DNA of 64,000 nucleotides from Candidatus Competibacter sp. Its GTDB lineage: Bacteria; Pseudomonadota; Gammaproteobacteria; Competibacterales; Competibacteraceae. Made by a program: the position numbers and the translations under genes. The notes beneath the pieces were generated by a model, which saw nothing but the letters and a program-made list of their open reading frames with translations, was not told the DNA's origin and did no database searches. How positions within the stretch are numbered: position 1 is the first letter of the stretch; each line of letters opens with the position of its first letter. Shown here one piece after another: positions 2,182-50,796 of this stretch. Location of the stretch: positions 1 to 64,000 of the forward strand of contig JARSSH010000050.1 in NCBI GenBank assembly GCA_029624815.1. The letters are read 5' to 3'.

Positions 2182-2241
2182 CATGACCTCCACTTAAAGT
2201 CTCTTCAGTTTGACTTCTCATGGAAGAAATTCTTGGGGCAC

Positions 2242-3174
2242 TACACGCTCAGACCAGCGCAGCTTGCCTCCCCGGAAGGTAAAGCCGAGGAATTCGCACT
2301 CGCTGGTCTCGACCACACGGCTTTTGTGCGGGTTGACCACCCGCTTGAGGGTTCCGGTCAAAAAGCGCGACACGCTCGCCATGACCCGTTCACCCGCGCG
2401 ATGGCTCCGCACGAGGATCAACAGATCGTCCGCGTAGCGGACGAACCGATGCCCCCGCCCCTCCAATTCCTTGTCCAGGTCATCCAGCAGGATATTGGCC
2501 AGCAAGGGCGACAGTGGCCCACCTTGCGGCGTACCGATCACCGTTGCGTCAAGGGTATCCCCGACCCGCACACCCGCCCGCGGATACTCGCCGATCAGTG
2601 CCAGCAGCCCTTTATCGCGGACCTTGCGGCCCACTCGGGCCATCAGGACATCGTGCCGGACCGTGTCGAAGAACTTCGCCAAGTCCAGATCGACGGCAAT
2701 CCGGTAGCCATCACCGATGTAGGTTTGTACCCGCCTGAGTGCTCCGTGGGCGGAGCGTCCTGGCCGGAAGCCAAAACTCGAATCCGAGAATCCTGGATCG
2801 AAGATCGGTCCCAGAACTTGCGCAATGGCCTGCTGGATGATGCGGTCTGTCACCGTCGGGATGCCGAGCGGGCGCTCGCCACCGTCGGGCTTGGGGATCG
2901 TCACCCGTCGTACCGGCACTGGCCGGTACGTGCCATCACGCAAGGCTTGGCGGATCGCCGGCCAGTTCGAACGTGCGAACTCCGGGAAGTCCTCGACGCG
3001 CATCCCATCCACACCAGGAGCGCCCTGGTTGGCCTTCACCCGCCTCCATGCCCGTCGCATGTTCTCGCTTTCCAGCACCCGCTCCATCAGGTCGTCGTGC
3101 AAGGCTGGCTGCGTGACCTCACGCCGCGACGCGTCTCCCCCGGACGGGTTCGACGACGCGCGCGAGCAATCCAC
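2242..3174 (-). pseudogene. ltrA: Group II intron reverse transcriptase, N-terminal fragment
   Basis: About 311 residues of a group II intron-encoded protein remain before the IS3 element. All reverse transcriptase blocks are recognisable: GAPGVDGM (RT0/1), IPKPDGGERPLGIP (RT1/2), the catalytic VDLDLAKFFDTV, GTPQGGPLSPLLANI, and the YADD active site in RFVRYADDLLIL, then FLGFTFRGGKLRW (RT7). The stop comes from the IS end (VPQEFLP). The catalytic palm is therefore intact, but the maturase domain needed for splicing is on the other side of the IS. The start ATG at 3174 gives a normal N-terminus. Confidence 0.9.
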
Positions 3175-3636
3175 GGCTCCGCCTTGTCTTCTCCTGTTCG
3201 GCCCTTCATCGCGCCGCCCGTCCGCGGGCGGGCAATTACTATGGCCTCGGCTGACTTCTGTCCCGTCACGCCGAACGTTGCCGTCCGGCGCGCTGCCCGA
3301 GTCGCGGTAGGGTCCGGTGGTGATTCCCGCCCTTTCGGGCTGGCCCGCAGTCCGGCTCCCCTGGCGACCACAGCCCCCGTAGGGTTCGATGGCCTATCCA
3401 GCCCTTTCGGACTGGGCCTCAGTTCGACTCCCATAGCGGTACGGGCTGCATGCGGGACAGATCTCCCCGGATAAGGACATGAACTTTCCGTGCACAACCG
3501 CCGCATTTACCCTATCCCCTGCACCTGGCGGGCTTCGTCACCTTGTGCTGACTCGCCCGGGGACTGAGCCTTCCATGCGGTTTCTGTCCGTCGGCTCGCA
3601 CGTTTGCACTCGGGCTTCCTCCAGACAGACCCTCAC
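3175..3636 (-). ncRNA. Group II intron 5' RNA domains upstream of the reverse transcriptase
   Basis: The gap upstream of the reverse transcriptase ORF has no coding gene but is rich in short GC stems with GAAA-type loops. Minus-strand examples are CAGTCCGAAAGGGCTGG and GCCAGCCCGAAAGGGCGG. It also holds phrases I associate with bacterial group II introns, such as GACGGGACAGAAGTCAGC shortly before the ORF. This would be domains I-IV of the intron RNA. Open reading frames here have no recognisable product. The 5' boundary is either 3601 (GTGCG) or 3636 (GTGAG). Confidence 0.65.
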
Positions 3637-3651
3637 GGGGCTGCCCTTGCC

Positions 3652-5639: not shown

Positions 5640-6821
5640 CTGACCCAAGCACCGCTGTCCTGGCTGCTCCTGCTTGGCGCGCTGACCGCTTTCGCGCCGA
5701 TGTCGATCGACATGTATCTGCCCAGCCTGCCGGCCATCGCCGCCGCGTTCGCCGCCGATCCCGCCGCCGCTCAATACACCCTGGCCAGTTTCTTTATCGG
5801 GCTGGCGCTGGGCCAAGCCGTCTACGGCCCGCTCGCCGACCGCTACGGCCGCAAGCCGCCGCTATATGCCGGACTGACGCTCTACATCGTGGCTTCGATC
5901 GGCTGCGCGTTGGCGCCCGACATCGCCACGCTGACCGTGCTGCGGTTCGTGCAGGCGACAGGCGGTTGCGCCGGCGTGGTGATCGCGCGGGCCGTGGTGC
6001 GCGACCGTTTCGACGCGCGGACCTCGGCCAAGATCTATTCGCTGTTGATGCTGGTGATGGGATTGGCGCCGATTCTGGCCCCCATCATGGGTGGCTGGAT
6101 TTTGACGCTGGCGAGCTGGCGCGCGATTTTTGGAGTGCTGGCCCTGTTCGGATTCGCCACGCTGATGCTCAGTTGGCGCCACCTGCCGGAAACTCGGCCG
6201 GCCGATACCTTGGGCAGCGCCGGAATCGGCGCGGCCTTGCGGGTCTATGGCGCGCTGTTGCGCGACCGGCGCTTCGTCGGCTATGCCCTGAGCGGCGGCC
6301 TCGCGCTGGGCGGCATGTTCGCCTACATCACCGGATCGCCGCATGCGTTCATCGAACTGTACGGCGTGCCGGCACAGTCCTTCGGTTGGCTATTCGGACT
6401 CAACGCGCTGGGGCTGATCGCCAGCTCGCAGTACAACCGCCGGCTGCTGAGCCATCACAGCGCCGACGCAATCCTACGTCGCGCTAACCGCACAACCGTG
6501 CTGCTGGGTTTGGCGTTGCTGGCGGTCGCGGCCAGCGGCCGGGGTGGCCTGCCGGCGCTGCTGATACCGCTGTTCGGCTATATCGCCAGCCTCGGCTTCA
6601 CCGGACCGAACGCGATGGCCTGCGCGCTGGCCGATCAGGGCGGTCGCGCCGGCAGCGCCTCGGCCTTGATCGGCACGCTGCAATTCGCGGTGGCGACGGT
6701 TTCCAGCATGCTGGTCGGACTGCTGGGCAATGGCTCGGTGCTGCCGATGGCGGCGGTCATCGCCGGTTGCGGCGTGCTGGCCTACGGCGCGCATCGGCTG
6801 CTGGTCGGGGACGGGAAATGA
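5640..6821 (+). CDS. Bcr/CflA-family MFS drug efflux transporter
   Basis: This is a 12-helix major facilitator of the Bcr/CflA subfamily, a proton-driven exporter of drugs or small metabolites in the inner membrane. Landmarks are PMSIDMYLPSLPAIA at helix 1 and the motif A loop GPLADRYGRKPP. The nearest ATG (5700) would cut off helix 1 (SWLLLLGALTAFAP), which is encoded just upstream in the same frame. That frame has no ATG, GTG or TTG back to a stop at 5604. A CTG at 5640, 6 nt after GGAGAG (5628-5633), is the best start and gives about 393 residues. The substrate cannot be told. Confidence 0.85.
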   Translation: MTQAPLSWLLLLGALTAFAPMSIDMYLPSLPAIAAAFAADPAAAQYTLASFFIGLALGQAVYGPLADRYGRKPPLYAGLTLYIVASIGCALAPDIATLTVLRFVQATGGCAGVVIARAVVRDRFDARTSAKIYSLLMLVMGLAPILAPIMGGWILTLASWRAIFGVLALFGFATLMLSWRHLPETRPADTLGSAGIGAALRVYGALLRDRRFVGYALSGGLALGGMFAYITGSPHAFIELYGVPAQSFGWLFGLNALGLIASSQYNRRLLSHHSADAILRRANRTTVLLGLALLAVAASGRGGLPALLIPLFGYIASLGFTGPNAMACALADQGGRAGSASALIGTLQFAVATVSSMLVGLLGNGSVLPMAAVIAGCGVLAYGAHRLLVGDGK

Positions 6822-6902
6822 TGGATCGGGAGTTGCCCCCGGCGACCGTGCTTCGCCAGACCGGTGGATGCCCGCCTCCTGCCGCGGCTTCAAGCTGACG
6901 CC

Positions 6903-7850
6903 ATGTCTCCTCATCATCGTCGCGCCCTGACCCTGAGCATCGTCCTGGCCGCGCTGCTGTATCTGGGTTTCGTGCTGTTCGCCGACCGGGAGGCCGTGTT
7001 CGCCGCCTTGCGGCGAGTGAGTCCGCCGGTACTGTCAACGATTTTCGTGCTATCCCTGCTTAACTATCTGCTGCGTTTCTGGCGCTGGCGGCGCTACATG
7101 GCCGCGTTCGGCCACGCCCTGCCATGGCGGCGGCACTTCCTCTACTACCTGGCGGGCTTTGCCCTGACCGTGACGCCCGGCAAGGCCGGCGAGGCGGTGC
7201 GGTCGCTGTATCTGCGCGGTCATGGCGTGAGCCATGCCCAGAGCCTGGCGGCGCTGTTCGTGGAACGGTTGCTGGACGTGCTGGCCATGAGCCTGCTGGC
7301 GCTACTGCTGCTGTTGGCCCGGCCCGATTACGCCGGGTTGGTGGCGATGGCCTGGGTGCTGACCCTGGGGCTGGGCTGGCTGCTTACTCGCGCATGGTTA
7401 CCGGGAAAATTGCGGGCATGGGGACAGCATCATCGCCACGCGCATCAGTTCGATCGGCTGGCGCGCTTGCTCGGTTCGGCGACGGAATTGTTGCGGCCGG
7501 GTTACTTTTCATTCGGATTGGGGCTGGGCGTGCTGTCCTGGGGGCTGGAAGGATTATCCTTGTCTTTGATTGCTCGGGATGTCGGTGTCGGCGTCAGCGT
7601 GGAAACGGGAATCGGCATCTACGCTGTCGCGGTGCTGGCCGGGGCGCTGTCGTTCCTGCCCGGCGGCTTGGGCGGCGCCGAGGCGGTGATGGGCGCACTA
7701 CTGGTGGCCTTCGGCGCGGACGGCCCGGCGGCGGTGGCGATTACGTTGCTGTGCCGGATCGCGACGCTATGGTTCGCGGTGGCGCTGGGCGGCTTGGCCG
7801 TCGGGGTGTTGGGCATCGGCAACGACAGGGCCGGTGGTCCTGCTCCATGA
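6903..7850 (+). CDS. Lysylphosphatidylglycerol synthase-like / UPF0104 membrane protein (flippase-like)
   Basis: The 315-residue protein has about 8 membrane helices and the family features of the AglD/LPG-synthase transmembrane domain: LRFWRWRRYM near residue 50, TVTPGKAGEAVRSLYL near 85, and LSFLPGGLGGAEAVMGALL near 255. Members of this fold are linked to lipid or lipid-linked sugar translocation. It overlaps the next gene (ATGA) and heads a four-gene operon resembling polyprenyl-phosphate-arabinose synthesis. A role in presenting that lipid-linked sugar at the periplasmic side is plausible but inferred. The ATG at 6903 is preferred to 6864 because homology starts near RRALTLSIVL. Confidence 0.8.
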   Translation: MSPHHRRALTLSIVLAALLYLGFVLFADREAVFAALRRVSPPVLSTIFVLSLLNYLLRFWRWRRYMAAFGHALPWRRHFLYYLAGFALTVTPGKAGEAVRSLYLRGHGVSHAQSLAALFVERLLDVLAMSLLALLLLLARPDYAGLVAMAWVLTLGLGWLLTRAWLPGKLRAWGQHHRHAHQFDRLARLLGSATELLRPGYFSFGLGLGVLSWGLEGLSLSLIARDVGVGVSVETGIGIYAVAVLAGALSFLPGGLGGAEAVMGALLVAFGADGPAAVAITLLCRIATLWFAVALGGLAVGVLGIGNDRAGGPAP

Positions 7851-9277
7851 AAAGCCCACCCCCTCTCTGCATCGATCTCGACGGCACCCTGCTGAATTCC
7901 GATCTGTTGCTGGAAGCAGCCCTGATCCAGATCAAGCAAGCACCCCGATCAATGCCGTGCTGGCCGCGCTGGCTGGCCGGCGGCAAAGCCAACTTCAAGG
8001 CGGAAATCGCCGCGCGGGTAGATCTCGATATTGACACCCTGCCCTACAACCCGGACCTGTTGGCCTGGCTCCGCGAACAGCGGCAACGGGGCCGGAAACT
8101 GGTGCTGGTCACTGCTTCGCATCGGAAATTCGCCGAGCAGGTAGCCCACCATCTCGGCCTATTCGAGGAAGTGCTGGCAACCGACGGCGACCGCAATCTG
8201 GCGGGTTCCCGCAAGGCCGAGGCCCTGGTGGCCCGCTACGGCGAGCAGGGTTTCGACTACGCCGGCAACGCCGCCGTGGATCTCGCCGTCTGGAAACACG
8301 CCCGCCGCGCGCTCGTGGTCAACGCCCCGCCGTCGGTTGCTGCTCGAGCCCGCGCGGTCTGTGCGGTGGAGCGGGTCTTCGACTCGAATGAATCTCCATG
8401 GCGGCATTGGGGCAAGGCGCTGCGCCTGCATCAATGGCTGAAGAACCTGCTCATCTTCGTACCCCTGGCCGCCGGCCACGCTTGGAATCAACCCGCCACG
8501 CTGGCGCTGGCGCTGCTGGCCTTCGTCAGTTTCGGCTTGTGCGCCTCCAGCGTCTACCTCCTCAACGATCTGCTCGACCTCGGTTCCGATCGTCGCCATC
8601 CGCGCAAGCGTCAGCGCCCTTTCGCCGCCGGCAAGCTGCCCATCCTGCAAGGCGTGATCGCCATCCCCCTGCTGCTCATCGCCGCGTTTGGCCTGAGCCT
8701 GCCCATCAACCCGCCCGCGTTCACCGCCGCGCTGGCCACCTACTACGTTTTTACCCTGGCCTACTCGCTGCGGCTCAAGCAAACCCTGATGCTCGACGTC
8801 ATCGTATTGGCCGGGCTGTATACCCTGCGGATCGTCGCCGGCGCGGCGGCGGCGAATCTCATGCCCTCGTTTTGGCTACTGGCCTTCTCGATGTTCCTGT
8901 TCCTCAGCCTGGCTCTGGTCAAGCGCTACGCCGAACTGCAAACCCTGCGCGAGCAAGGCGAATTGAGCGCCAGCGGCCGAGGTTATCATGTGGACGATCT
9001 GGGCATCCTGCAAAGTTTGGGCACAGCCGCCGGCTATCTGGCGGTGCTGGTGCTGGCGCTGTACGTCAACAGCGAAACCAGCCGCGCGCTGTACGGCCAG
9101 CCGATGGTGATCTGGCTGCTCTGTCCGGCGCTGCTCTACTGGATCAGCCGGGTCTGGCTGCTCGCCCATCGCGGCGAGATGCACGACGACCCAATCGTCT
9201 TCGCCCTGACCGACTCCCACAGTCGCTACATGTTGCTGGCCTGTGCGTTCATTTTTCTGGGCGCGATGCCGAGGTGA
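7847..9277 (+). CDS. HAD phosphatase fused to UbiA-family prenyltransferase (DPPR synthase-like)
   Basis: This 476-residue fusion has an N-terminal HAD hydrolase (residues 1-185, nucleophile motif CIDLDGTLLNSD) and a C-terminal UbiA domain (about 190-476). The UbiA domain has the two Asp-rich sites NDLLDLGSDRRHPRKRQRP and YSLRLKQTLMLDVIVLAG and about 8 helices. In mycobacteria the separate proteins Rv3806c (UbiA, adds phosphoribose to decaprenyl phosphate) and Rv3807c (phosphatase) do the first two steps toward decaprenyl-phospho-arabinose. Here one polypeptide could do both. It overlaps both neighbours by 4 bp, and the following genes encode DprE1- and DprE2-like enzymes, which supports that pathway. 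Confidence 0.85.
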   Translation: MKSPPPLCIDLDGTLLNSDLLLEAALIQIKQAPRSMPCWPRWLAGGKANFKAEIAARVDLDIDTLPYNPDLLAWLREQRQRGRKLVLVTASHRKFAEQVAHHLGLFEEVLATDGDRNLAGSRKAEALVARYGEQGFDYAGNAAVDLAVWKHARRALVVNAPPSVAARARAVCAVERVFDSNESPWRHWGKALRLHQWLKNLLIFVPLAAGHAWNQPATLALALLAFVSFGLCASSVYLLNDLLDLGSDRRHPRKRQRPFAAGKLPILQGVIAIPLLLIAAFGLSLPINPPAFTAALATYYVFTLAYSLRLKQTLMLDVIVLAGLYTLRIVAGAAAANLMPSFWLLAFSMFLFLSLALVKRYAELQTLREQGELSASGRGYHVDDLGILQSLGTAAGYLAVLVLALYVNSETSRALYGQPMVIWLLCPALLYWISRVWLLAHRGEMHDDPIVFALTDSHSRYMLLACAFIFLGAMPR

Positions 9278-10629
9278 ACGCCATCGTGTCCGCCACCGCG
9301 CCGGGCAGTTGGGGCCGTTACCCGCCCTCCAAGCCGCGCCAGGTTCTGCACTGCCGCGACCCGCGAACGCTCATCCTGCCGGCGGAACCCTTGTCTTGCC
9401 TGCCTTTCGGCAACGGTCGCAGTTACGGCGATGTCTGCCTGAACGACGGTGGCGCCCTGCTCTGCACACGGAAACTGGACCGCTTTATCGCCTTCGATCC
9501 GGTCATGGGATCGTTACGGGCGGAAGCCGGCGTATTGCTTTCGGAAATTCTGGCGCTGGTCGTCCCGCAAGGCTGGTTTTTGCCGGTTACCCCCGGCACC
9601 CGGTTTGTCACCCTGGGCGGAGCCGTGGCCAATGATGTGCATGGCAAGAACCACCATGTCGCCGGCAGTTTCGGCGGTCACGTCCGCGCCTTTGAACTGC
9701 TGCGCTCCGACGGCGAGCACCGGCTTTGCACGCCGACGCACCACGCCGACTGGTTCCGGGCGACGGTCGGCGGGCTCGGCCTGACCGGGCTGATCGCCTG
9801 GGTGGAAATCCAGTTGCAACGCATCGCCAACCCCTGGATCGTGGCCGAGAACCGCCGCTTTGCCAATCTGGACGAGTTCCTGGCGCTCAACGACGACTAC
9901 GAGGCGCGCTATCCCTACATCGTGTCCTGGATCGATTGCGCCGCCCAAGGTCGGGCGCTGGGCCGGGGAATTTACATGGCCGGCATGCATGCGCCACCCG
10001 GTCTGATGAAATCGCCGCCCGCGGAACCTCGCGCGTTGACCGTACCGTTCGCGCCGCCGGTCTCGCTGATCAACAACTTGAGCGTGCGCGGGTTCAACCG
10101 GCTCTACTATCGTCTGCCGCGTCCGGCGCGTGGATTGACGCCGTATCAACCGTTCTTCCATCCGCTGGACAAGCTGCTGGAGTGGAACCGGCTGTACGGG
10201 CGACGGGGCTTTTTTCAATACCAGTGCGTCATCCCCCCCGCCGACGCCCGCGAAGCCTTGCGGGAAATTCTGGCCCGCGTCGCCGCCAGCGGTCAGGGTT
10301 CGATGCTGGCGGTGCTCAAGCGCTTCGGCGACAAGACATCGGGCGGCTTGCTGTCTTTCCCTCGGCCCGGCGTGACCCTGGCGCTGGATTTTCCCAACCG
10401 GGGCCGGGAGACGCTTGATCTGCTGGAGCGGCTCGACGAGGTCACCCGGCAGGCCGATGGAGCGGTCTATCCCGCCAAGGATGCCCGAATGAGCGGCGAC
10501 AGCTTCCGCCAGTATTACCCACGCTGGGAAGCATTCAGCCGCCATATCGATCCCCGCTTCTCCTCCAGTTTCTGGCGGCGGGTCATGGCTGACCGAACTT
10601 CACGGGAAACGACATGCGCAATATCTTGA
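9274..10629 (+). CDS. FAD-linked oxidase, DprE1-like (decaprenylphospho-ribose 2'-oxidase homologue)
   Basis: The 451-residue protein has an N-terminal PCMH-type FAD-binding domain, with the block LPFGNGRSYGDVCLNDGG near residue 45 and VTLGGAVANDVHGKNHHVAG near 110. A C-terminal substrate domain follows. The GNGRSYGD motif and HGKNHH are shared with DprE1, which oxidises the 2'-OH of polyprenyl-phospho-ribose in the first half of the epimerisation to arabinose. The GTG at 9274 overlaps the previous stop; a GTG at 9286 is possible. It overlaps the next SDR gene by 16 bp, so the pair is probably co-translated like DprE1/DprE2. Confidence 0.85.
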   Translation: MNAIVSATAPGSWGRYPPSKPRQVLHCRDPRTLILPAEPLSCLPFGNGRSYGDVCLNDGGALLCTRKLDRFIAFDPVMGSLRAEAGVLLSEILALVVPQGWFLPVTPGTRFVTLGGAVANDVHGKNHHVAGSFGGHVRAFELLRSDGEHRLCTPTHHADWFRATVGGLGLTGLIAWVEIQLQRIANPWIVAENRRFANLDEFLALNDDYEARYPYIVSWIDCAAQGRALGRGIYMAGMHAPPGLMKSPPAEPRALTVPFAPPVSLINNLSVRGFNRLYYRLPRPARGLTPYQPFFHPLDKLLEWNRLYGRRGFFQYQCVIPPADAREALREILARVAASGQGSMLAVLKRFGDKTSGGLLSFPRPGVTLALDFPNRGRETLDLLERLDEVTRQADGAVYPAKDARMSGDSFRQYYPRWEAFSRHIDPRFSSSFWRRVMADRTSRETTCAIS

Positions 10630-11354
10630 TCATCGGCGCCACTTCGGCCATCGCCGAAGCCACCGCCCGCCGTTTCGCCGCCGCTGGCGCCCGCTTCCAC
10701 CTGGTCGGGCGCAATGCCGAAAAACTCGCCGCGATCGCCCGCGATTTGGAAATTCGCTCCGGTCAGCCAGTCGCATGGGAAAGCCTCGACCTCGATCGAC
10801 TGGATTTGCATCCGGCCCTGCTGGAGCGGGCCGAACACGCGCTCGGCGGTATCGACGTGGCATTGATCGCCCACGGGATCCTGCCCGATCAAGCCGCATG
10901 CCAGCAGTCGGTCGAAAAAACCCTGGCGGCGATCCACACGAATGCCCTGAGCGTGATCAGCCTGGCGACGCTGCTGGCCAACGACTTTGAAATGCGCGGG
11001 CGTGGAACGCTGATCGCCATCGGCTCGGTCGCCGGCGACCGGGGCCGGCAAAGCAACTACGTCTATGGCGCCGCCAAGGGCATGGTGAATCTGTTCCTGC
11101 AAGGGTTGCGTAACCGCTTGAGCAAAAAAGGCGTCCAGGTGATTACCATCAAGCCGGGGTTCGTGGACACGCCAATGACCGCCGCGTTCGAGAAAAAGGG
11201 CCCGCTCTGGGCGCAGCCCGACCAGATCGCGAAGGGCATCGTCGCCGCCGTCGAGCGTGGCCGGGATGAGGCGTATCTGCCCGGTCTCTGGCGTTGGATC
11301 ATGCTGGTGATCCGACATATCCCCGAGGGGATATTCAAGCGGTTAAGGCTTTGA
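10614..11354 (+). CDS. Short-chain dehydrogenase, DprE2-like
   Basis: This 246-residue SDR should reduce the 2'-keto intermediate made by the upstream oxidase, completing ribose-to-arabinose epimerisation on a polyprenyl carrier. The cofactor loop GATSAIAEATARRF (residues 8-21) replaces the usual TGxxxGxG, as in DprE2-type proteins. The catalytic Ser lies in IGSVAGDRG and the Tyr/Lys in YVYGAAKG (YxxxK). A C-terminal hydrophobic stretch (WIMLVIRHIPEGIF) suggests membrane association. It is the last gene of the operon before a 13-bp gap. Confidence 0.85.
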   Translation: MRNILIIGATSAIAEATARRFAAAGARFHLVGRNAEKLAAIARDLEIRSGQPVAWESLDLDRLDLHPALLERAEHALGGIDVALIAHGILPDQAACQQSVEKTLAAIHTNALSVISLATLLANDFEMRGRGTLIAIGSVAGDRGRQSNYVYGAAKGMVNLFLQGLRNRLSKKGVQVITIKPGFVDTPMTAAFEKKGPLWAQPDQIAKGIVAAVERGRDEAYLPGLWRWIMLVIRHIPEGIFKRLRL

Positions 11355-11367
11355 CTGGGGGAGACTC

Positions 11368-11820
11368 TTGAAAATCTGGATCGACGCGGACGCCTGCCCG
11401 GCGCCGGTGAAAATCATCGTATTCCGCGCCTCGCAACGGGTCGGCGTACCGGTCACCCTGGTCGCCAACCAACGGCTGCAAACGCCGCCTTCGCCTTTGA
11501 TCACGGCGGTGCAGGTCAGCCGGGGCTTCGACGAGGCCGACGATTACATCGTGCGACAGGCCACCGCCAGCGACTTGGTCGTTACCGCCGATATCCCGCT
11601 GGCGGCACGCCTGGTGGAACGGGGTGTGCCGGCGCTCAACCCGCGCGGCGAGCTGTACACTCAGGACAACGTGCGGGAGCGGCTGGCCCTGCGCAACCTC
11701 AAGGAAGAACTGCGCTCGGCGGGCACGCCAACCGGCGGTCCACCGCCTTACAACGACCGCGACAAGCAGGCGTTCGCCAACGGTCTGGATCGCTGGCTGG
11801 CGCGCCGCCGGACCCGTTAG
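11368..11820 (+). CDS. UPF0178 (YaiI/DUF188) family protein
   Basis: The 150-residue protein matches the UPF0178 family from end to end: MKIWIDADACPAPVKIIVFR at the start (PIN-like fold, acidic residues at 6 and 8), a GFDEADDYIV block, VVTADIPLAARL, and LNPRGELYT. The family is widespread and has no firmly established function. The TTG at 11368 is accepted because GGGGGAG lies shortly upstream and the N-terminus is complete. The end overlaps the convergent MFS gene by 4 bp. Confidence 0.88.
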   Translation: MKIWIDADACPAPVKIIVFRASQRVGVPVTLVANQRLQTPPSPLITAVQVSRGFDEADDYIVRQATASDLVVTADIPLAARLVERGVPALNPRGELYTQDNVRERLALRNLKEELRSAGTPTGGPPPYNDRDKQAFANGLDRWLARRRTR

Positions 11821-13064
11821 CGGGTTTTCCCCATCCACCCACTCCCCAACGCCAACCAAATCCAGGTCATCCCCTGCCCCGCCAGCACCAGCCCGAACGC
11901 CCAGCGATACCCCACGTCCGCATAGCCGCCGCCCGCCAGCGGCCAGTGGTTGACGATGGCGCCCATGCCCCACTGTCCGGCGAACGCGGCCACGAACACC
12001 AGCAGGTTCAGCGCCGTGTTGACCCGCCCCGACAGCGCCGCTGGAAAAGATTGCGACAGCACCGCATAGCTCAACACCCCGCTGGTGCCGAAGAACCCGA
12101 ACAACACCCACAACGGCAGCAGCGGTCCCCAACCAAGCAGAATCGCCAGTTGCACCCCCATGAACAACACCATCCCGCCGGCGGACACCGCCAGCGGTGG
12201 GATGCCGTGGCGAGTCAAGCGATAAGCCAGTTGCCCCATGCCCAGAAAACCCGCCACCATCGCCGCCGCGATCCAGAATAAATGGCTGGCCGCCGTCACC
12301 TTATCCAAACCGGACACGTCGCGCAGCCAGGGGCCGGCCCACAAGCCCTGAATCGCCAGGAACGACGCCTGCGACAGCACGGCGCATGGCGCGACCCGCC
12401 AGAACACCGGATCGCGGAACAAACCCACCGTCTCCCGCCACTGCGTCCGCCAATCGCCGCTCACCGCCGCTTCGTCGCTCTCCCGTTCCGGCGCCACCAG
12501 CAGCAAAAGAACCGCAACCAGGAAACTCAAGCCCGCCAGCACGACGAACAAGCCACGCCAGTCGGTCAGTTTCAGCGCGGCCTCCACCGGCGCGGTCGCG
12601 ACCAGCGCCCCCAAGCCGCCGGCCGCCAGCACCCAGCCGTTGACCGCCGGCAACCGCGCGGCCGGAAACCACAGCACGAAGGCCTTGAAACTGGCCATCA
12701 GACAGGCCGACACGCCCAAGCCGATCAAACCCCGCCCCACGATCAACTCCATCGCGCTACCGCTGACCGCGAACAGCCCGGCGCCGGCCGCCGCGAACAA
12801 CAGCAGCGTCGCCTCCACCCGGCGTGGCCCGAACCGGTCCAGCAAGAGGCCCAGCGGCAGTTGAAACGCGGCGAAGGTCAGAAAATAGACGCTGGTCAGC
12901 AGACCGAGATCGGTGGCGTCCAGCCGCAATTCAGCGACCAGATAGGGCGAAAGCACCGCGTTGATGGTGCGGTACAGATAGGACAAAAAATAACCGGCGG
13001 CGAACGGCAGAAAAATCCGCGCCGCCACGGCGCGGGCCGACAACGCCGCCGCGCCGTGGCTCAT
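11817..13064 (-). CDS. MFS transporter
   Basis: This 415-residue, 12-helix major facilitator has RTINAVLSPYLVAEL in the first periplasmic segment, the motif A-like loop GLLLDRFGPRRVEATLL, and a charged central loop (APERESDEAAVSGDWRTQW). The shape resembles organic-anion or sugar-phosphate-type carriers, but the substrate cannot be called. The ATG at 13064 overlaps the stop of the thiopurine methyltransferase gene (ATGA), so the two genes form a coupled pair. The frame extends far upstream but that part is a shadow of the methyltransferase. Confidence 0.85.
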   Translation of the reverse strand: MSHGAAALSARAVAARIFLPFAAGYFLSYLYRTINAVLSPYLVAELRLDATDLGLLTSVYFLTFAAFQLPLGLLLDRFGPRRVEATLLLFAAAGAGLFAVSGSAMELIVGRGLIGLGVSACLMASFKAFVLWFPAARLPAVNGWVLAAGGLGALVATAPVEAALKLTDWRGLFVVLAGLSFLVAVLLLLVAPERESDEAAVSGDWRTQWRETVGLFRDPVFWRVAPCAVLSQASFLAIQGLWAGPWLRDVSGLDKVTAASHLFWIAAAMVAGFLGMGQLAYRLTRHGIPPLAVSAGGMVLFMGVQLAILLGWGPLLPLWVLFGFFGTSGVLSYAVLSQSFPAALSGRVNTALNLLVFVAAFAGQWGMGAIVNHWPLAGGGYADVGYRWAFGLVLAGQGMTWIWLALGSGWMGKTR

Positions 13065-13744
13065 TGCCCGGATACCGGCATGGCCTCCGCGCGCTGGCGC
13101 AGCCGATAGACCCGCTCCAATAGCCAGCTCAGGCCCCGCTCCCGCCAGCGCGACTCCTCCGCCAGCGCGTCGCGGGTGTCGAGTAACTCCACCTCGCGCG
13201 TCGCCTGGTACAGCGCCCGCACCTCGACATCGCCAACCGCGAACGGCGGCCCGGCCAACACGCTTTGGTCGTACTCCAGCGTCACCAGCAGCATCGGCGT
13301 CCCCGCTGGCAGGATCGCATCGAGATGGCGAGTGTAGCGCTCGCGCATCGGCGGCGGCAGCGCGATCAACGAGGCGCGGTCGTAAACGCCGGCGCAACCG
13401 GCCAGATGATGCGGCCCCAGATCGAAGAAATCGCCGAGCAGAATACGAATTTCATCCGCCTCCCAGATCTCGAACGCCCCTTCTCGCCAGCGCTTCGGCG
13501 TCAGCCCGTTCTCGGCAAAAAACGCCTCGACCGCGAGCGGGCTGAGTTCCACCCCGGTCACCGAATGGCCTTCGCCGGCCAGCCACAGCAGATCGCGGCT
13601 CTTGCCGCACAGCGGGGCGAATACCCGCTGGCCGGGGCGCAGACCGAGCCGGCTCCAGAATTGCTGGAGATGAACGTTGATATCCTGTTGGTGGAAGCCG
13701 ATCTCGCTTCGTTCCCAGCGCTCGTGCCAAAAATTCGGTTCCAT
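13061..13744 (-). CDS. tpm: Thiopurine S-methyltransferase
   Basis: The 227-residue SAM-dependent methyltransferase starts MEPNFWHERWERSEIGFHQ, the typical bacterial TPMT N-terminus, followed by RVFAPLCGKSRDLLWLAGEGH (SAM site, residues 40-60) and VTGVELSPLAVEAFF. Bacterial TPMT also methylates selenium and tellurium species and confers tellurite tolerance in some pseudomonads. The ATG at 13744 is chosen for its fit with the family; an ATG at 13750 adds two residues. It is the first gene of a two-gene operon with the MFS transporter, so export of a methylated or toxic compound is possible. Confidence 0.92.
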   Translation of the reverse strand: MEPNFWHERWERSEIGFHQQDINVHLQQFWSRLGLRPGQRVFAPLCGKSRDLLWLAGEGHSVTGVELSPLAVEAFFAENGLTPKRWREGAFEIWEADEIRILLGDFFDLGPHHLAGCAGVYDRASLIALPPPMRERYTRHLDAILPAGTPMLLVTLEYDQSVLAGPPFAVGDVEVRALYQATREVELLDTRDALAEESRWRERGLSWLLERVYRLRQRAEAMPVSGQ

Positions 13745-13774
13745 GATCACGCACCCATAGTGGGGTGAAAAAAG

Positions 13775-15235
13775 TCAGCCCGGCCACCAGGCGCGGGGCG
13801 TAAACAACGCGCCCGCCCCCTGCAACAGATAACGCAGATCCTTGGTGGTGCTGCGTTGGCGGGCGTAAAAGACATCGCTCATCAACCGTTCCTCGCGGGG
13901 TGCGTTGGCGGGCAGCGTCAGTTGAGTGGGACCGATCAGCCCGGCCGGCGCCTGATCGCCGACCCGCTCCCAGTCCTCCCGCCGGCTGTCGGCCAATTCC
14001 GGGGTGAGCGGTTCCGCGCCCACCAGCCGCAGATCGCCACTCACCACCGCCAGCAGGCGCGGCAGGTAGCGCAGCAGCGGAATCGAGGTTGCCCATTCCC
14101 GGACGACGAACACGCGCCGCTGGCGTGCGCCGAACTCGTCGAATTCCAGGCGGTTACCGCGCAGCCGGGTCTCGCGCAGGGGGTCGTTGAAATTCTCGGT
14201 CAACGCGGCGGCCAGCGCCAGCGGCCACAATGGCAGCGACAGCAACAGCAGCAACAGTCCCAGCAGGCGGTTCAGCGGCTCGGCCAGGGCGCCGCCCAGC
14301 GTCACCTCGCGCAAATCGGCCAGCAGGAAGGTTTCGACCACCGGCAGCACCGCCCCGGTATCGACCCGGATCAATTGGTTGCCTCGGACGATGGCGTTTT
14401 GCACATCCAACAGTTCGCCGACGTAGGTATCCGACAACACCACACTGTCGCGCAAAATGGCGTGGCGATCCACGATTACCCGGTTGGCGATGACGACTTC
14501 GCCGTACAACTCGGCGCTGGCTTCCACCCGGCAATTCCCGCCGACGAAGGCGATGCCCTGCCGCAGGCTGCGCGGCGATACCTTGGAGCGCAATCCCACG
14601 GTCAACCCTAGGGCCATGTGCCGGCCTGGCACGATCAGGCCCGGAAAGCGGCCGGCGGCGGCGTCGAGGTTGGCCTGATGATAGGCGCGCAGCGATTCCA
14701 GTCGATTCAGGGCGGCGCCGGGCAATTCCACCACCGGCCAAGTGGGGGGCATCTCCACCGACGCGGCGGACCAGCGCAGCGGCTCCAGCCCGCCCCGACC
14801 GCCGGCGCGGTGCAGGCACAGGCTGACCGGCGCACCTATCGCTCCACCGTACACCACCGGACCGCTCGCCTCGCCCGCCAAGCGTAAAAACTCACCCAGC
14901 GCCGCGCCGTGCAGCACATCGCCCCGCAAGGCGAGCAGCTCGTCCGTCAGGCGAGACCGACAGCTTTCCACCACGGCCTCCGGATCTTCCTCGCCACGAG
15001 TGAGGACGTAATCCAGCCGCATCCCCCAGCGGCCACCGTCGCCCAGCACCGCTCGCAATTCGTCGGCGAAGGGCGAAACCGCCACAATCGCCTCGCGCAG
15101 GCCGGCGGCGGCCAGCGCTTCCAGCGTATGCTCCAGCACCGCCTTACCCGTCACCGACAGCAGCGCGACGCAGGTTTGGTCGGTCAGCGGCTCCAGTTCC
15201 CGGCCCAAGCGGTCGGCGAAAATCAGTGCTTGCAT
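13775..15235 (-). CDS. NDP-sugar synthase-like / sugar transferase-like fusion protein
   Basis: The 486-residue protein has three parts. Residues 1-230 look like a sugar nucleotidyltransferase (MQALIFADRLGRELEPLTDQ, HTLEALAAAGLREAIVAVSP). Residues 240-310 form a left-handed hexapeptide-like helix (GGNCRVEASAELYGEVVIAN). After a hydrophobic segment (LLGLLLLLLSLPLWPLALAAAL), residues 330-486 resemble a bacterial sugar transferase (GDLRLVGAEPLTPE, LIGPTQL, a final DVFYARQRSTTKDL block). The signature GxGTRLxPLT of active nucleotidyltransferases is poorly kept (DRLGRELEPLT). It starts 2 bp after the stop of the true initiating transferase. It may be a regulatory or modified initiating enzyme; function is uncertain. 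Confidence 0.7.
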   Translation of the reverse strand: MQALIFADRLGRELEPLTDQTCVALLSVTGKAVLEHTLEALAAAGLREAIVAVSPFADELRAVLGDGGRWGMRLDYVLTRGEEDPEAVVESCRSRLTDELLALRGDVLHGAALGEFLRLAGEASGPVVYGGAIGAPVSLCLHRAGGRGGLEPLRWSAASVEMPPTWPVVELPGAALNRLESLRAYHQANLDAAAGRFPGLIVPGRHMALGLTVGLRSKVSPRSLRQGIAFVGGNCRVEASAELYGEVVIANRVIVDRHAILRDSVVLSDTYVGELLDVQNAIVRGNQLIRVDTGAVLPVVETFLLADLREVTLGGALAEPLNRLLGLLLLLLSLPLWPLALAAALTENFNDPLRETRLRGNRLEFDEFGARQRRVFVVREWATSIPLLRYLPRLLAVVSGDLRLVGAEPLTPELADSRREDWERVGDQAPAGLIGPTQLTLPANAPREERLMSDVFYARQRSTTKDLRYLLQGAGALFTPRAWWPG

Positions 15236-21275: not shown

Positions 21276-21998
21276 TCAGGACCAGCGCCAAGCTTGCCAG
21301 CGCCAATCGGCGCCCTCCGCCGCCACGGCCCCGCTCCAGCCGACCTCCAGCGGCAGGTTCAGCACGCTCCATTCTCGATCCAAGGCATCCCGCAGACTGA
21401 CCCGACCGTCCGGCAATTCACCATCCGGGAAACAAACTTCCAGATTTCGCAAACCGCTGGCCAAACCACCGCCCAGCGCTTTGGCGACCGCTTCCTTACG
21501 GGTCCAGCAGTTGAAAAAGGCTTCCCGGAACCGTTCCGCCGGCAGCGTCTGGAACGCCGCCCATTCGCGCGGCGTACAAATCCGCTCGGCCACCGGCGCA
21601 TCGCTCACCACTCGATCCAGGCACTCCAGATCGACGCCCACCTCGCGGTGAGCGACCGCATACAGCGCCCGACCGCCGCTGTGCGCCAGGTTAAAACACA
21701 GGCCGGCACCGGCCTCCTCACCCATCAGCCTGGGCTTGCCGCGCGGCCCGCAGGCGAAACGCAGCGCCGCCGCGGGTCGATTCAGATACGCACCCAGCAG
21801 TTCCCGCAACAGGCCACGCCCGGCGATAAAACGATCCCGGTGTTCGGGAAAATGGAACCGCGCCGCCCGTTCCCGCTCGTCCGTCGCCAGCGCCGTCGCC
21901 AAATCCGCCCATCGTTCTCTCGGCCGATCCAGCTCCGCCAGCCATAAATGAATTTCGTCGGCGGCCAAAACGACCGGTGGATGGCGGCTATTCATCAT
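21276..21998 (-). CDS. 4'-phosphopantetheinyl transferase (Sfp/HetI type)
   Basis: The 240-residue protein contains both signature regions of Sfp-type phosphopantetheinyl transferases: HREVGVDLECLDRV (GVDxE, Mg binding, residues 120-133) and FFNCWTRKEAVAKALGGGL (WxxKEA, residues 165-185). RGLLRELLGAYL and LCFNLAHSGGRALYAV also fit. Such enzymes load the phosphopantetheine arm onto carrier proteins. The gene sits between two EPS glycosyltransferase genes and overlaps the end of the upstream one by 11 bp. No carrier-protein, PKS or NRPS gene is in the window. Two adjacent ATGs (21998, 21995) are both possible. Confidence 0.9.
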   Translation of the reverse strand: MMNSRHPPVVLAADEIHLWLAELDRPRERWADLATALATDERERAARFHFPEHRDRFIAGRGLLRELLGAYLNRPAAALRFACGPRGKPRLMGEEAGAGLCFNLAHSGGRALYAVAHREVGVDLECLDRVVSDAPVAERICTPREWAAFQTLPAERFREAFFNCWTRKEAVAKALGGGLASGLRNLEVCFPDGELPDGRVSLRDALDREWSVLNLPLEVGWSGAVAAEGADWRWQAWRWS

Positions 21999-49484: not shown

Positions 49485-50796
49485 CTTACAAGTGTAGGTT
49501 TTTCCGGAAAGAGCAAGCGAGACATAAAGTTGCGATAAAATAGCTGATAGGGAAATCGCCTGATTACCGGAGGAACCGTCATGCCTCGCGCCCCCGAACT
49601 GGAGCAATGGCGCACCGAAATTGCCAAGCACTTTCCCCATCTCAGCCAGCCAATGGTGATGGGATTGGCTCCGTGGAGTTTGGGCATGATCCTTGTGCGC
49701 TCCTGTGGTTTGACGGCGATCACCGACTGGTGGTCGTGCCGACTCGGTCAGCCCTTCCACACCGTGCGGGAACGCTTGCGCGATAGCTATCGCGAAGCGG
49801 AGGCGAAAGCCGGGGGGCATCGGGCCGAGCTCGACCTGAGGGCCTGTTGGGCGCCGTGGTGCACTTGGGTCTTGGACGGGTGGTCCGGCACCCAACTGGC
49901 CGTGGCTTTGGATGCGACCACCCTGGGCCAACGCTTTGTGCTCTTGGTCATCCGTGTGGTTTATCGGGGGTGTGCCGTGCCGCTCATCTGGAAGGTCTTG
50001 CCGGCGGGCTGCAAACACCCGTGGAAGCCGGAGTGGCTGGCGTTGTTACAGGTCTTGCGCGGGCGGGTTTCACCGACTTGGACGGTCATCGTCCTCGCCG
50101 ACCGGGGGTTGTATGCGAAGTGGTTGTTCGAGACCCTCGTTCAGATGGGATGGCATCCGATGCTTCGGGTCAATGTCGGCGGTTCGTTTCGCCCCGAAGG
50201 GTGGTATCACTGGGTGCCGTTTCGCCAGTTCGTTCTGGCGGTCGGTGATCGCTGGCAAGGCTCCGGGACCGCCTTTACCCACCCCAAGACGCGCCTGAAC
50301 TGTACGCTGTGAGGCTGCTGGGAGGTCGGTCACGACGCCCCATGGCTGATCTTAACCAACATTTCGCCACAAGCGGCCGAGGCGTGTTGGTACGGGTTGC
50401 GCGCATGGATTGAGCAAGGCTTCAAAAAGATCAAGGGCGGCGGGTGGCAATGGCAGTATACGCGGATGACCGACCCGAACCGGGCGAAACGCCTGTGGTT
50501 GGCGATCGCCATCGCGACGTGGTGGTTGCTCTCCATCGGCGGTGAGGCCGAAGCGACCCTCCCGACCGCGACGTTTCCGCCCGTGCCCGGTTCGCCTCGA
50601 CAGCAAGGTCGACGCTGGCGGCTGGTGGGCGTCTTCCGGCATGGTTGGTCGCTCATTATGGCGGCACTCTTCAAGCATCAAGATCTACCCACCGGGCATG
50701 GCTGCCCTGAACCATGGCCCACCTGCTCCACCGTCCCTCATGGCCCACCGTTGGCTATGTCCGTAGGAGAACCATGAAAAAACCTACACTTGTAAG
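49485..50796 (+). mobile_element. IS4-family insertion sequence, 1312 bp
   Basis: Perfect 19-bp terminal inverted repeats (CTTACAAGTGTAGGTTTTT at 49485-49503 and its complement at 50778-50796) enclose one transposase frame, and an 11-bp direct repeat flanks the element. The transposase carries the Y-x2-R-x3-E-x6-K signature of the IS4 family but contains one in-frame TGA, so this copy is probably inactive on its own. The element sits between the FixJ-type regulator and pta. Confidence 0.95.
49581..50777 (+). pseudogene. IS4-family transposase with an in-frame nonsense codon
   Basis: The frame runs from ATG 49581 to a TGA at 50310-50312 and then continues, in the same frame, to a stop at 50775-50777 next to the right IS end, about 398 codons in all. 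The two pieces join smoothly (...KTRLNCTL-stop-GCWEVGHDAPWLIL...). DDE residues are visible: VALDATTLGQ, VLADRGLYAKWLF, and YGLRAWIEQGFKKIK, which fits the YREK signature exactly. The nonsense mutation removes the catalytic glutamate, so the protein is inactive unless TGA is read through. Confidence 0.92.

Follow-up and report, generated by a model that had tools for sequence, protein, structure and literature searches.

A predicted operon for making and flipping a polyprenyl-phosphate pentofuranose donor in Candidatus Competibacter, with an MprF-type protein as candidate flippase

We analyzed a 64,000-nucleotide stretch of Candidatus Competibacter DNA (positions 1 to 64,000 of JARSSH010000050.1, assembly GCA_029624815.1; hereafter the window), which lies on contig 50 of a 3.63-Mb, 70-contig Candidatus Competibacteraceae genome. 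On its forward strand, positions 6903-11354 hold four genes that overlap by 4, 4 and 16 bp and encode, in this order, an MprF-type membrane protein that we call FLIP, a HAD-UbiA fusion, a DprE1-like oxidase and a DprE2-like short-chain dehydrogenase/reductase (SDR) (Table 1). An initial annotation of the window had proposed a four-gene operon with start/stop overlaps at this position, and Pfam and NCBIfam scans bore out both its coordinates and its families. FLIP may alternatively start at a GTG at 6864. The operon is not a chance arrangement, because most relatives of the family carry the three enzyme genes in this order, with protein identities of about 69-90% in the closer ones. A HAD-UbiA protein 88% identical to that of the window is encoded in a metagenome-assembled genome of Candidatus Competibacteraceae.

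Table 1 Features of the window. Identifications made by eye are marked as such.
Feature	Position	Strand	Basis
FLIP: MprF-type (LPG_synthase_TM, COG0392-like) membrane protein, proposed lipid-linked pentofuranose translocase	6903..7850	+	PF03706, fold match
HAD-UbiA fusion: phosphoribose phosphatase (HAD) and polyprenyl-phosphate phosphoribosyltransferase (UbiA)	7847..9277	+	NF006088, Rv3806c alignment
DprE1-like FAD oxidase, proposed 2'-OH oxidation of lipid-P-ribose; GTG start	9274..10629	+	FAD_binding_4, DprE1 alignment
DprE2-like SDR, proposed 2-keto reduction	10614..11354	+	adh_short, closest solved relative DprE2
Bcr/CflA MFS transporter, upstream of FLIP	5700..6821	+	TIGR00710, 319 bits
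YaiI/YqxD gene, downstream of the operon	11368-11820		profile match
Exopolysaccharide cluster: glycosyltransferases, Wza/Wzc-like, sugar transferases	13775-41987	-	by eye
Phosphopantetheinyl-transferase-like gene within the exopolysaccharide cluster	21276-21968		by eye
Group II intron	2218-3642	-	two Rfam D1-D4 matches (3476-3642, 3201-3292)
Transposase-like ORFs at the contig start	37-702, 1040-1897		by eye
Transposase-like ORF	49764-50312		by eye

We consider it likely that these four genes make and flip the donor for a system that glycosylates with a pentofuranose outside the cytoplasm. The UbiA half would transfer phosphoribose from phosphoribosyl pyrophosphate (PRPP) to polyprenyl phosphate, giving polyprenyl-P-(5-phospho)ribose, and the HAD half would remove the 5-phosphate. 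Oxidation of C2 by the DprE1-like protein and re-reduction by the DprE2-like protein would then yield polyprenyl-P-D-arabinofuranose, which FLIP, a predicted MprF-fold lipid translocase, would carry to the periplasmic leaflet. In the periplasm the flipped donor would serve a GT-C transferase whose gene lies elsewhere. The initial annotation had likewise read the locus as making a polyprenyl-phospho-pentofuranose donor in a Gram-negative, probably with D-arabinofuranose (D-Araf), and the family matches and conserved UbiA and DprE1 active-site residues argue for it. Presence of the donor pathway is very likely and D-Araf, the best single guess, is the most likely sugar; a D-Araf glycan in this organism is a prediction.

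In the HAD-UbiA fusion, UbiA (77 bits) and HAD (PF12710, 42 bits) domains lie within a single frame of 476 residues, which scores 681 bits with NCBIfam NF006088 (HAD-UbiA family PRK08238), over the cut-off of 351. Along 181 aligned residues it is 38% identical to Rv3806c (8j8j), whose N73, D74, D77, D81, K28 and K143 are kept as N240, D241, D244, D248, K199 and K311. All six are invariant in 18 HAD-UbiA sequences, as are R360 and HAD residues D10 and D12. In the Rv3806c structure Mg2+ is held by Asn73 and Asp77 (PMC10994848), and the four UbiA motif residues are those tested in Citrobacter ORF15 (PMC11127046). We rejected the idea that the protein fuses Rv3806c and Rv3807c orthologues, since its phosphatase domain is a PF12710 HAD and Rv3807c is described as unrelated to HAD-family phosphatases (Kelly et al. 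2024, PMC11127046). The initial annotation, which had the first two mycobacterial proteins fused here, is right in function, the HAD domain being a functional stand-in, but not in the identity of the phosphatase. The fusion itself is not new, a HAD-UbiA enzyme having been characterized in Citrobacter (PMC11127046).

The DprE1-like protein shares 40% identity with Mycobacterium tuberculosis DprE1 over 431 positions and retains K418, H132, Y60, W230, Q334, Q336 and K367 (M. tuberculosis numbering). All of these except W230 are residues that we take to matter for DprE1 activity, and their equivalents are invariant in 21 DprE1-like sequences. Loss of the UbiA Asp-rich residues or of the DprE1 substrate residues, which the initial annotation had named as evidence against its reading, is thus not seen at the level of sequence. 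The closest solved relative of the DprE2-like protein is DprE2 itself (21gq_C, E 7.7e-36), and by eye the SDR carries an S-Y-K motif.

The core of the finding is of a known kind, because Kelly et al. (PMC11127046) characterized the ORF15 route and the association of DprE1/E2 with Araf. In their account, the three-component pentofuranose system of Citrobacter youngae O1/O2 consists of ORF15, ORF14 and ORF12; ORF15, a HAD-UbiA fusion, makes farnesyl-P-ribofuranose from PRPP, as shown biochemically, a predicted flippase and a GT-C act after it, and DprE1/E2 homologues accompany Araf glycans. The window shares with this system an N-terminal HAD fused to a UbiA with the Asp/Asn motif (NDxxDxxxD), a flippase gene in the cluster and optional sugar-setting epimerases, here the DprE1/E2 homologues expected of an Araf variant. 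It differs in that the predicted flippase is MprF-type whereas that of Citrobacter is EmrE/ArnE-like, in having the DprE1/E2-like pair in place of ORF13, and in lacking a GT-C in the operon. Tuberculosis bacteria draw on lipid-linked arabinofuranose, a rare sugar donor, for their cell wall. With the mycobacterial decaprenyl-P-arabinose pathway (Rv3806c, Rv3807c, DprE1, DprE2 and Rv3789) the window has in common the UbiA phosphoribosyltransferase and the two-step C2 epimerase, at 38-40% identity for Rv3806c and DprE1, but a HAD replaces the Rv3807c phosphatase, an MprF-type protein the proposed Rv3789 flippase, and an Ala Cys387 of DprE1. Both proteobacterial precedents cited by the initial annotation could be traced: pilin D-Araf is named in PMC11127046, and the noeCHOP/noeN operon, from a proteobacterium whose Nod factors bear D-Araf, holds orthologues for three steps of lipid-P-Araf synthesis, with a separate noeN as proposed phosphatase and NoeP as transferase, unlike the window (PMC5080398). 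The Pseudomonas aeruginosa group IV pilin D-Araf system (PSPA7_6246 and neighbours) is likewise a Gram-negative D-Araf donor pathway. Its phosphatase is presumably not fused. What sets the window apart is the unexpected family of the probable flippase and the absence from the operon of the enzyme that would use the sugar.

FLIP matches PF03706 with 165.5 bits and is a stand-alone protein of 315 residues that ends after the transmembrane domain. Its model (pLDDT 84.5, 20 sequences in the alignment) retrieved six MprF entries in a fold search (Z 22.4-23.6, root-mean-square deviation 4.4-4.8, 288-292 residues), the next unrelated row having Z 5.5. A sequence profile of FLIP had no match among PDB sequences, and these structures were reached through the fold search only. 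E260 and R285 are invariant in 20 sequences and resemble the MprF salt bridge E295-R319 (PMC11980842) in their sequence spacing. Flipping of lipids or saccharides has already been suggested for COG0392/UPF0104 proteins such as the AglD C-terminus (PMC5898192 and PMC11980842). FLIP has the same predicted fold and family as the MprF flippase domain and COG0392 proteins, but stands alone, and shared presence and shared loss connect it with a single pathway. Among open-licence PMC papers we found none tying MprF-type proteins to DprE1 pathways.

Co-occurrence was determined in 39 genomes of the family, counting HAD-UbiA as full when over its cut-off and DprE1 as present at E below 1e-100. Full HAD-UbiA was found in 25 genomes, DprE1 in 24 and a FLIP match in 21, the last comprising 19 DprE1-positive genomes, G024, whose match is 48% identical and has one in-frame stop, and G028, with a piece of 58 residues. 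FLIP is therefore present in 19/24 DprE1-positive and 0/15 DprE1-negative genomes, or 2/15 if G024 and G028 are counted (Fisher p 7.7e-7 with these two counted absent and 7.6e-5 with them counted present, uncorrected for relatedness). Mixed states occur within four genera (g3, g4, g9 and g13). Of the 19 genomes with both genes, 9 have FLIP and DprE1 on separate contigs, and in G017 and G029 HAD-UbiA is so deep inside a long contig that it is truly unlinked from FLIP. G028, without full HAD-UbiA and DprE1, keeps only codons 1-58 of FLIP, exactly where synteny with its relative G027 places the gene; the alignment of the two genomes stops 104 bp inside FLIP and picks up past its end. This is an in-place deletion. 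Co-occurrence and co-loss with DprE1 support FLIP as a putative, still unproven translocase.

We then scanned loci with FLIP, GtrA and SMR/EamA profiles, which are partly circular, having been built from members in these same loci; the mutual exclusiveness of the families is not circular. Among 21 loci below 60% identity, nine had FLIP, adjoining DprE1/E2, eight had GtrA, two had SMR and two, on short contigs, had none; no cluster among the 21 held two flippase kinds. One SMR locus lacks DprE1 and the other has DprE1 without DprE2. From 86 plasmid records matching HAD-UbiA we hand-picked a fresh set of 14 to spread genera: the seven with DprE1 and DprE2 had GtrA (six) or none (one), and the seven without them SMR (four) or none (three). 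In a tree of 40 HAD-UbiA proteins, limited to loci with a recognized flippase, at least 8 changes of the flippase label are needed, with starred branches forcing at least 3 changes for FLIP, and DprE presence changes only twice. MprF-type and GtrA swap repeatedly on this tree, and a new observation is that MprF-type, GtrA and SMR-type proteins are mutually exclusive in this slot. The link between SMR and missing DprE1 is weak because only 2 independent pairs stand on the tree. Within the family, HAD-UbiA is accompanied by SMR but not by DprE1 in G013 and G023, and L136 (6884-10015) and L137 show HAD-UbiA with an SMR/EamA transporter and no DprE1, presumably as ribofuranose systems. On a Vibrio alfacsensis plasmid (L168, 8911-12172), HAD-UbiA and EamA adjoin an exosortase/PEP-CTERM polysaccharide locus.

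Relatives carry multi-membrane genes beside the donor module: two in sister genome G005 (L004, one of them at 8695-9906), inside the operon and transferase-like, and one each in G029 (L133, 7513-9144), G026 (L128), G017 (L132, 9500-11287), G021 (L134) and G003 (L139). They encode 374-640 residues at a G+C fraction of 0.27-0.47, against 0.54-0.61 for the loci. In a scan of ten proteins one of the seven matched PMT_2 and the other six had no Pfam match; the GT-C label rests on position, size and predicted membrane segments, plus PMT_2 for the one gene. The L133 candidate has two weak matches in 369 genomes of the class and a single-sequence AlphaFold model with pLDDT 43, and only three recognizably related pairs were found among 22 transferase candidates from all loci. 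These inserted genes are probably exchanged GT-C transferases. A decayed second cluster in G002 (C13:72565-74694, L152) includes a transferase gene copy interrupted by six in-frame stops, near a DprE1 fragment. We tentatively propose, at slightly less than an even chance, that this MprF-fold branch is a dedicated polyprenyl-P-D-Araf flippase, that GtrA fills the same slot elsewhere and SMR/EamA where DprE1/E2 are missing, and that bacteria of this one family exchange unrelated, AT-rich GT-C transferases around the donor kit. If so, the flippase family would report the sugar, SMR/EamA clusters without DprE1/E2 being presumed ribofuranose systems, and many acceptors of different kinds could be decorated from a single conserved donor. 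A flippase for lipid-linked arabinofuranose has so far only been proposed; the question is directly testable here, since the fold of the flippase family has been solved, nature has provided a deletion in place, and GtrA is available as a partner that can be interchanged with it. For a sludge bacterium that is uncultured, the donor operon may also serve as a marker of D-arabinose glycans.

Several results weigh against reading the operon as a D-Araf donor and flippase system. Rv3806c Gln135 is Thr303 in the window HAD-UbiA. The DprE1-like and DprE2-like proteins score 358 and 194 bits with equivalogs NF053785 and NF053786, under the NCBI cut-offs of 500 and 250, which is why we name them "-like". 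FLIP is missing in five of the 24 DprE1-positive genomes, of which G021 has GtrA, G015 contains no more than a piece of DprE1, G019 and G035 are incomplete genomes, and G022 is the fifth. As MprF-type translocases may be promiscuous, the fold match leaves the FLIP substrate unfixed. Lastly, no GT-C linked to the window operon was found, PF09594 and PF02366 (PMT/GT87) profiles had no match in the window genome, and neither did three transferase candidates from relatives.

We looked for a GT-C in the genome, as the initial annotation had asked: there is none linked and none of PMT/GT87 type, but PF13231 (PMT_2) has a single match, a GtrA-GT-C fusion on contig 3. By eye, it adjoins a second MprF-like protein and a heptosyltransferase-like gene. 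The module could be stranded, its transferase lost and the donor unused or taken up by this fusion, since the window has neither of the two transferase-like genes of G005 and the fusion is the sole PMT_2 match. We regard this as rather unlikely: none of the four genes is damaged, much of the family conserves them, and GT-C proteins are divergent enough to escape profile searches. The fusion is a possible transferase; a dedicated role is unsupported, as the same kind occurs in G012 without HAD-UbiA or DprE1 and, by eye, beside arn-like genes in several genomes. An AT-rich cassette at L037 (8895-13220) holds a GtrA-GT-C fusion, a second MprF-like protein and a heptosyltransferase-like gene, and by eye the same cassette lies beside arn-like genes in G012, G017 and G018, ArnT not being seen in the G018 stretch. 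A search of the window genome for an ArnC-type donor synthase gave only weak GT2 matches.

FLIP could instead serve another lipid, for example aminoacyl-phosphatidylglycerol, and be merely a neighbour. MprF-type translocases can be promiscuous, the P. aeruginosa member scrambling many lipids (PMC11980842), and in other genomes FLIP adjoins an MFS gene and other unrelated genes. This is unlikely, as FLIP has no C-terminal aminoacyl-phosphatidylglycerol synthase domain (NF033480, 49 bits against a cut-off of 600), follows DprE1 also where the two are unlinked, is truncated at its own site in DprE1-less G028, and in the loci scanned never shared a cluster with GtrA or SMR.

That the oxidase-reductase pair makes another epimer (e.g. 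at C3) or leaves a keto sugar appears improbable. It would fit the scores under the mycobacterial cut-offs, the altered pocket (Y314 to Phe, N385 to Thr, C387 to Ala) and the further epimerase and amine-oxidase-like protein of other clusters. Against it, Ala (A370) is found in at least 90% and Phe (F295) in all of the proteobacterial set (n=21) and, being common to the set, these are branch markers rather than decay; in addition, Kelly et al. (PMC11127046) link DprE1/E2 homologues with Araf glycans, Xylf systems using another epimerase, ORF13. At the benzothiazinone-binding position, Cys387, the DprE1-like protein has a natural Ala. Very improbable is a product that stays lipid-P-ribofuranose with both oxidoreductases acting on something else: HAD-UbiA alone yields lipid-P-Ribf in Citrobacter (PMC11127046) and occurs without DprE1 in G013 and G023, but those copies carry SMR/EamA without FLIP, and the window has its four genes in one overlapping run, with the DprE1 residues preserved.

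Around the predicted donor operon, the Bcr/CflA gene is probably a syntenic neighbour outside the pathway; a small yjgA-like gene lies near it upstream of the operon, and the order yjgA-like - MFS - FLIP recurs in L121-L124 (both by eye). The exopolysaccharide cluster comprises the surface-glycan genes nearest to the operon in the window, and the donor operon adjoins the first exopolysaccharide genes in L004 and L012 as well. In Rhodobacteraceae loci the cluster has Flp-pilin-like genes as neighbours (by eye). In L029, L030, L032 and L034 (about 7000-14500), HAD-UbiA, DprE1/E2 and FLIP stand beside Flp-pilin-like genes of 61-63 residues and a CpaB-like gene (by eye), and Tad-pilin arabinosylation is possible there. 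In one Azoarcus locus the cluster adjoins a protein with a pilin-type N_methyl motif. Such pilin and exopolysaccharide neighbours are hints to the acceptor, not proof. The group II intron of the window contains, by eye, a reverse-transcriptase-like ORF.

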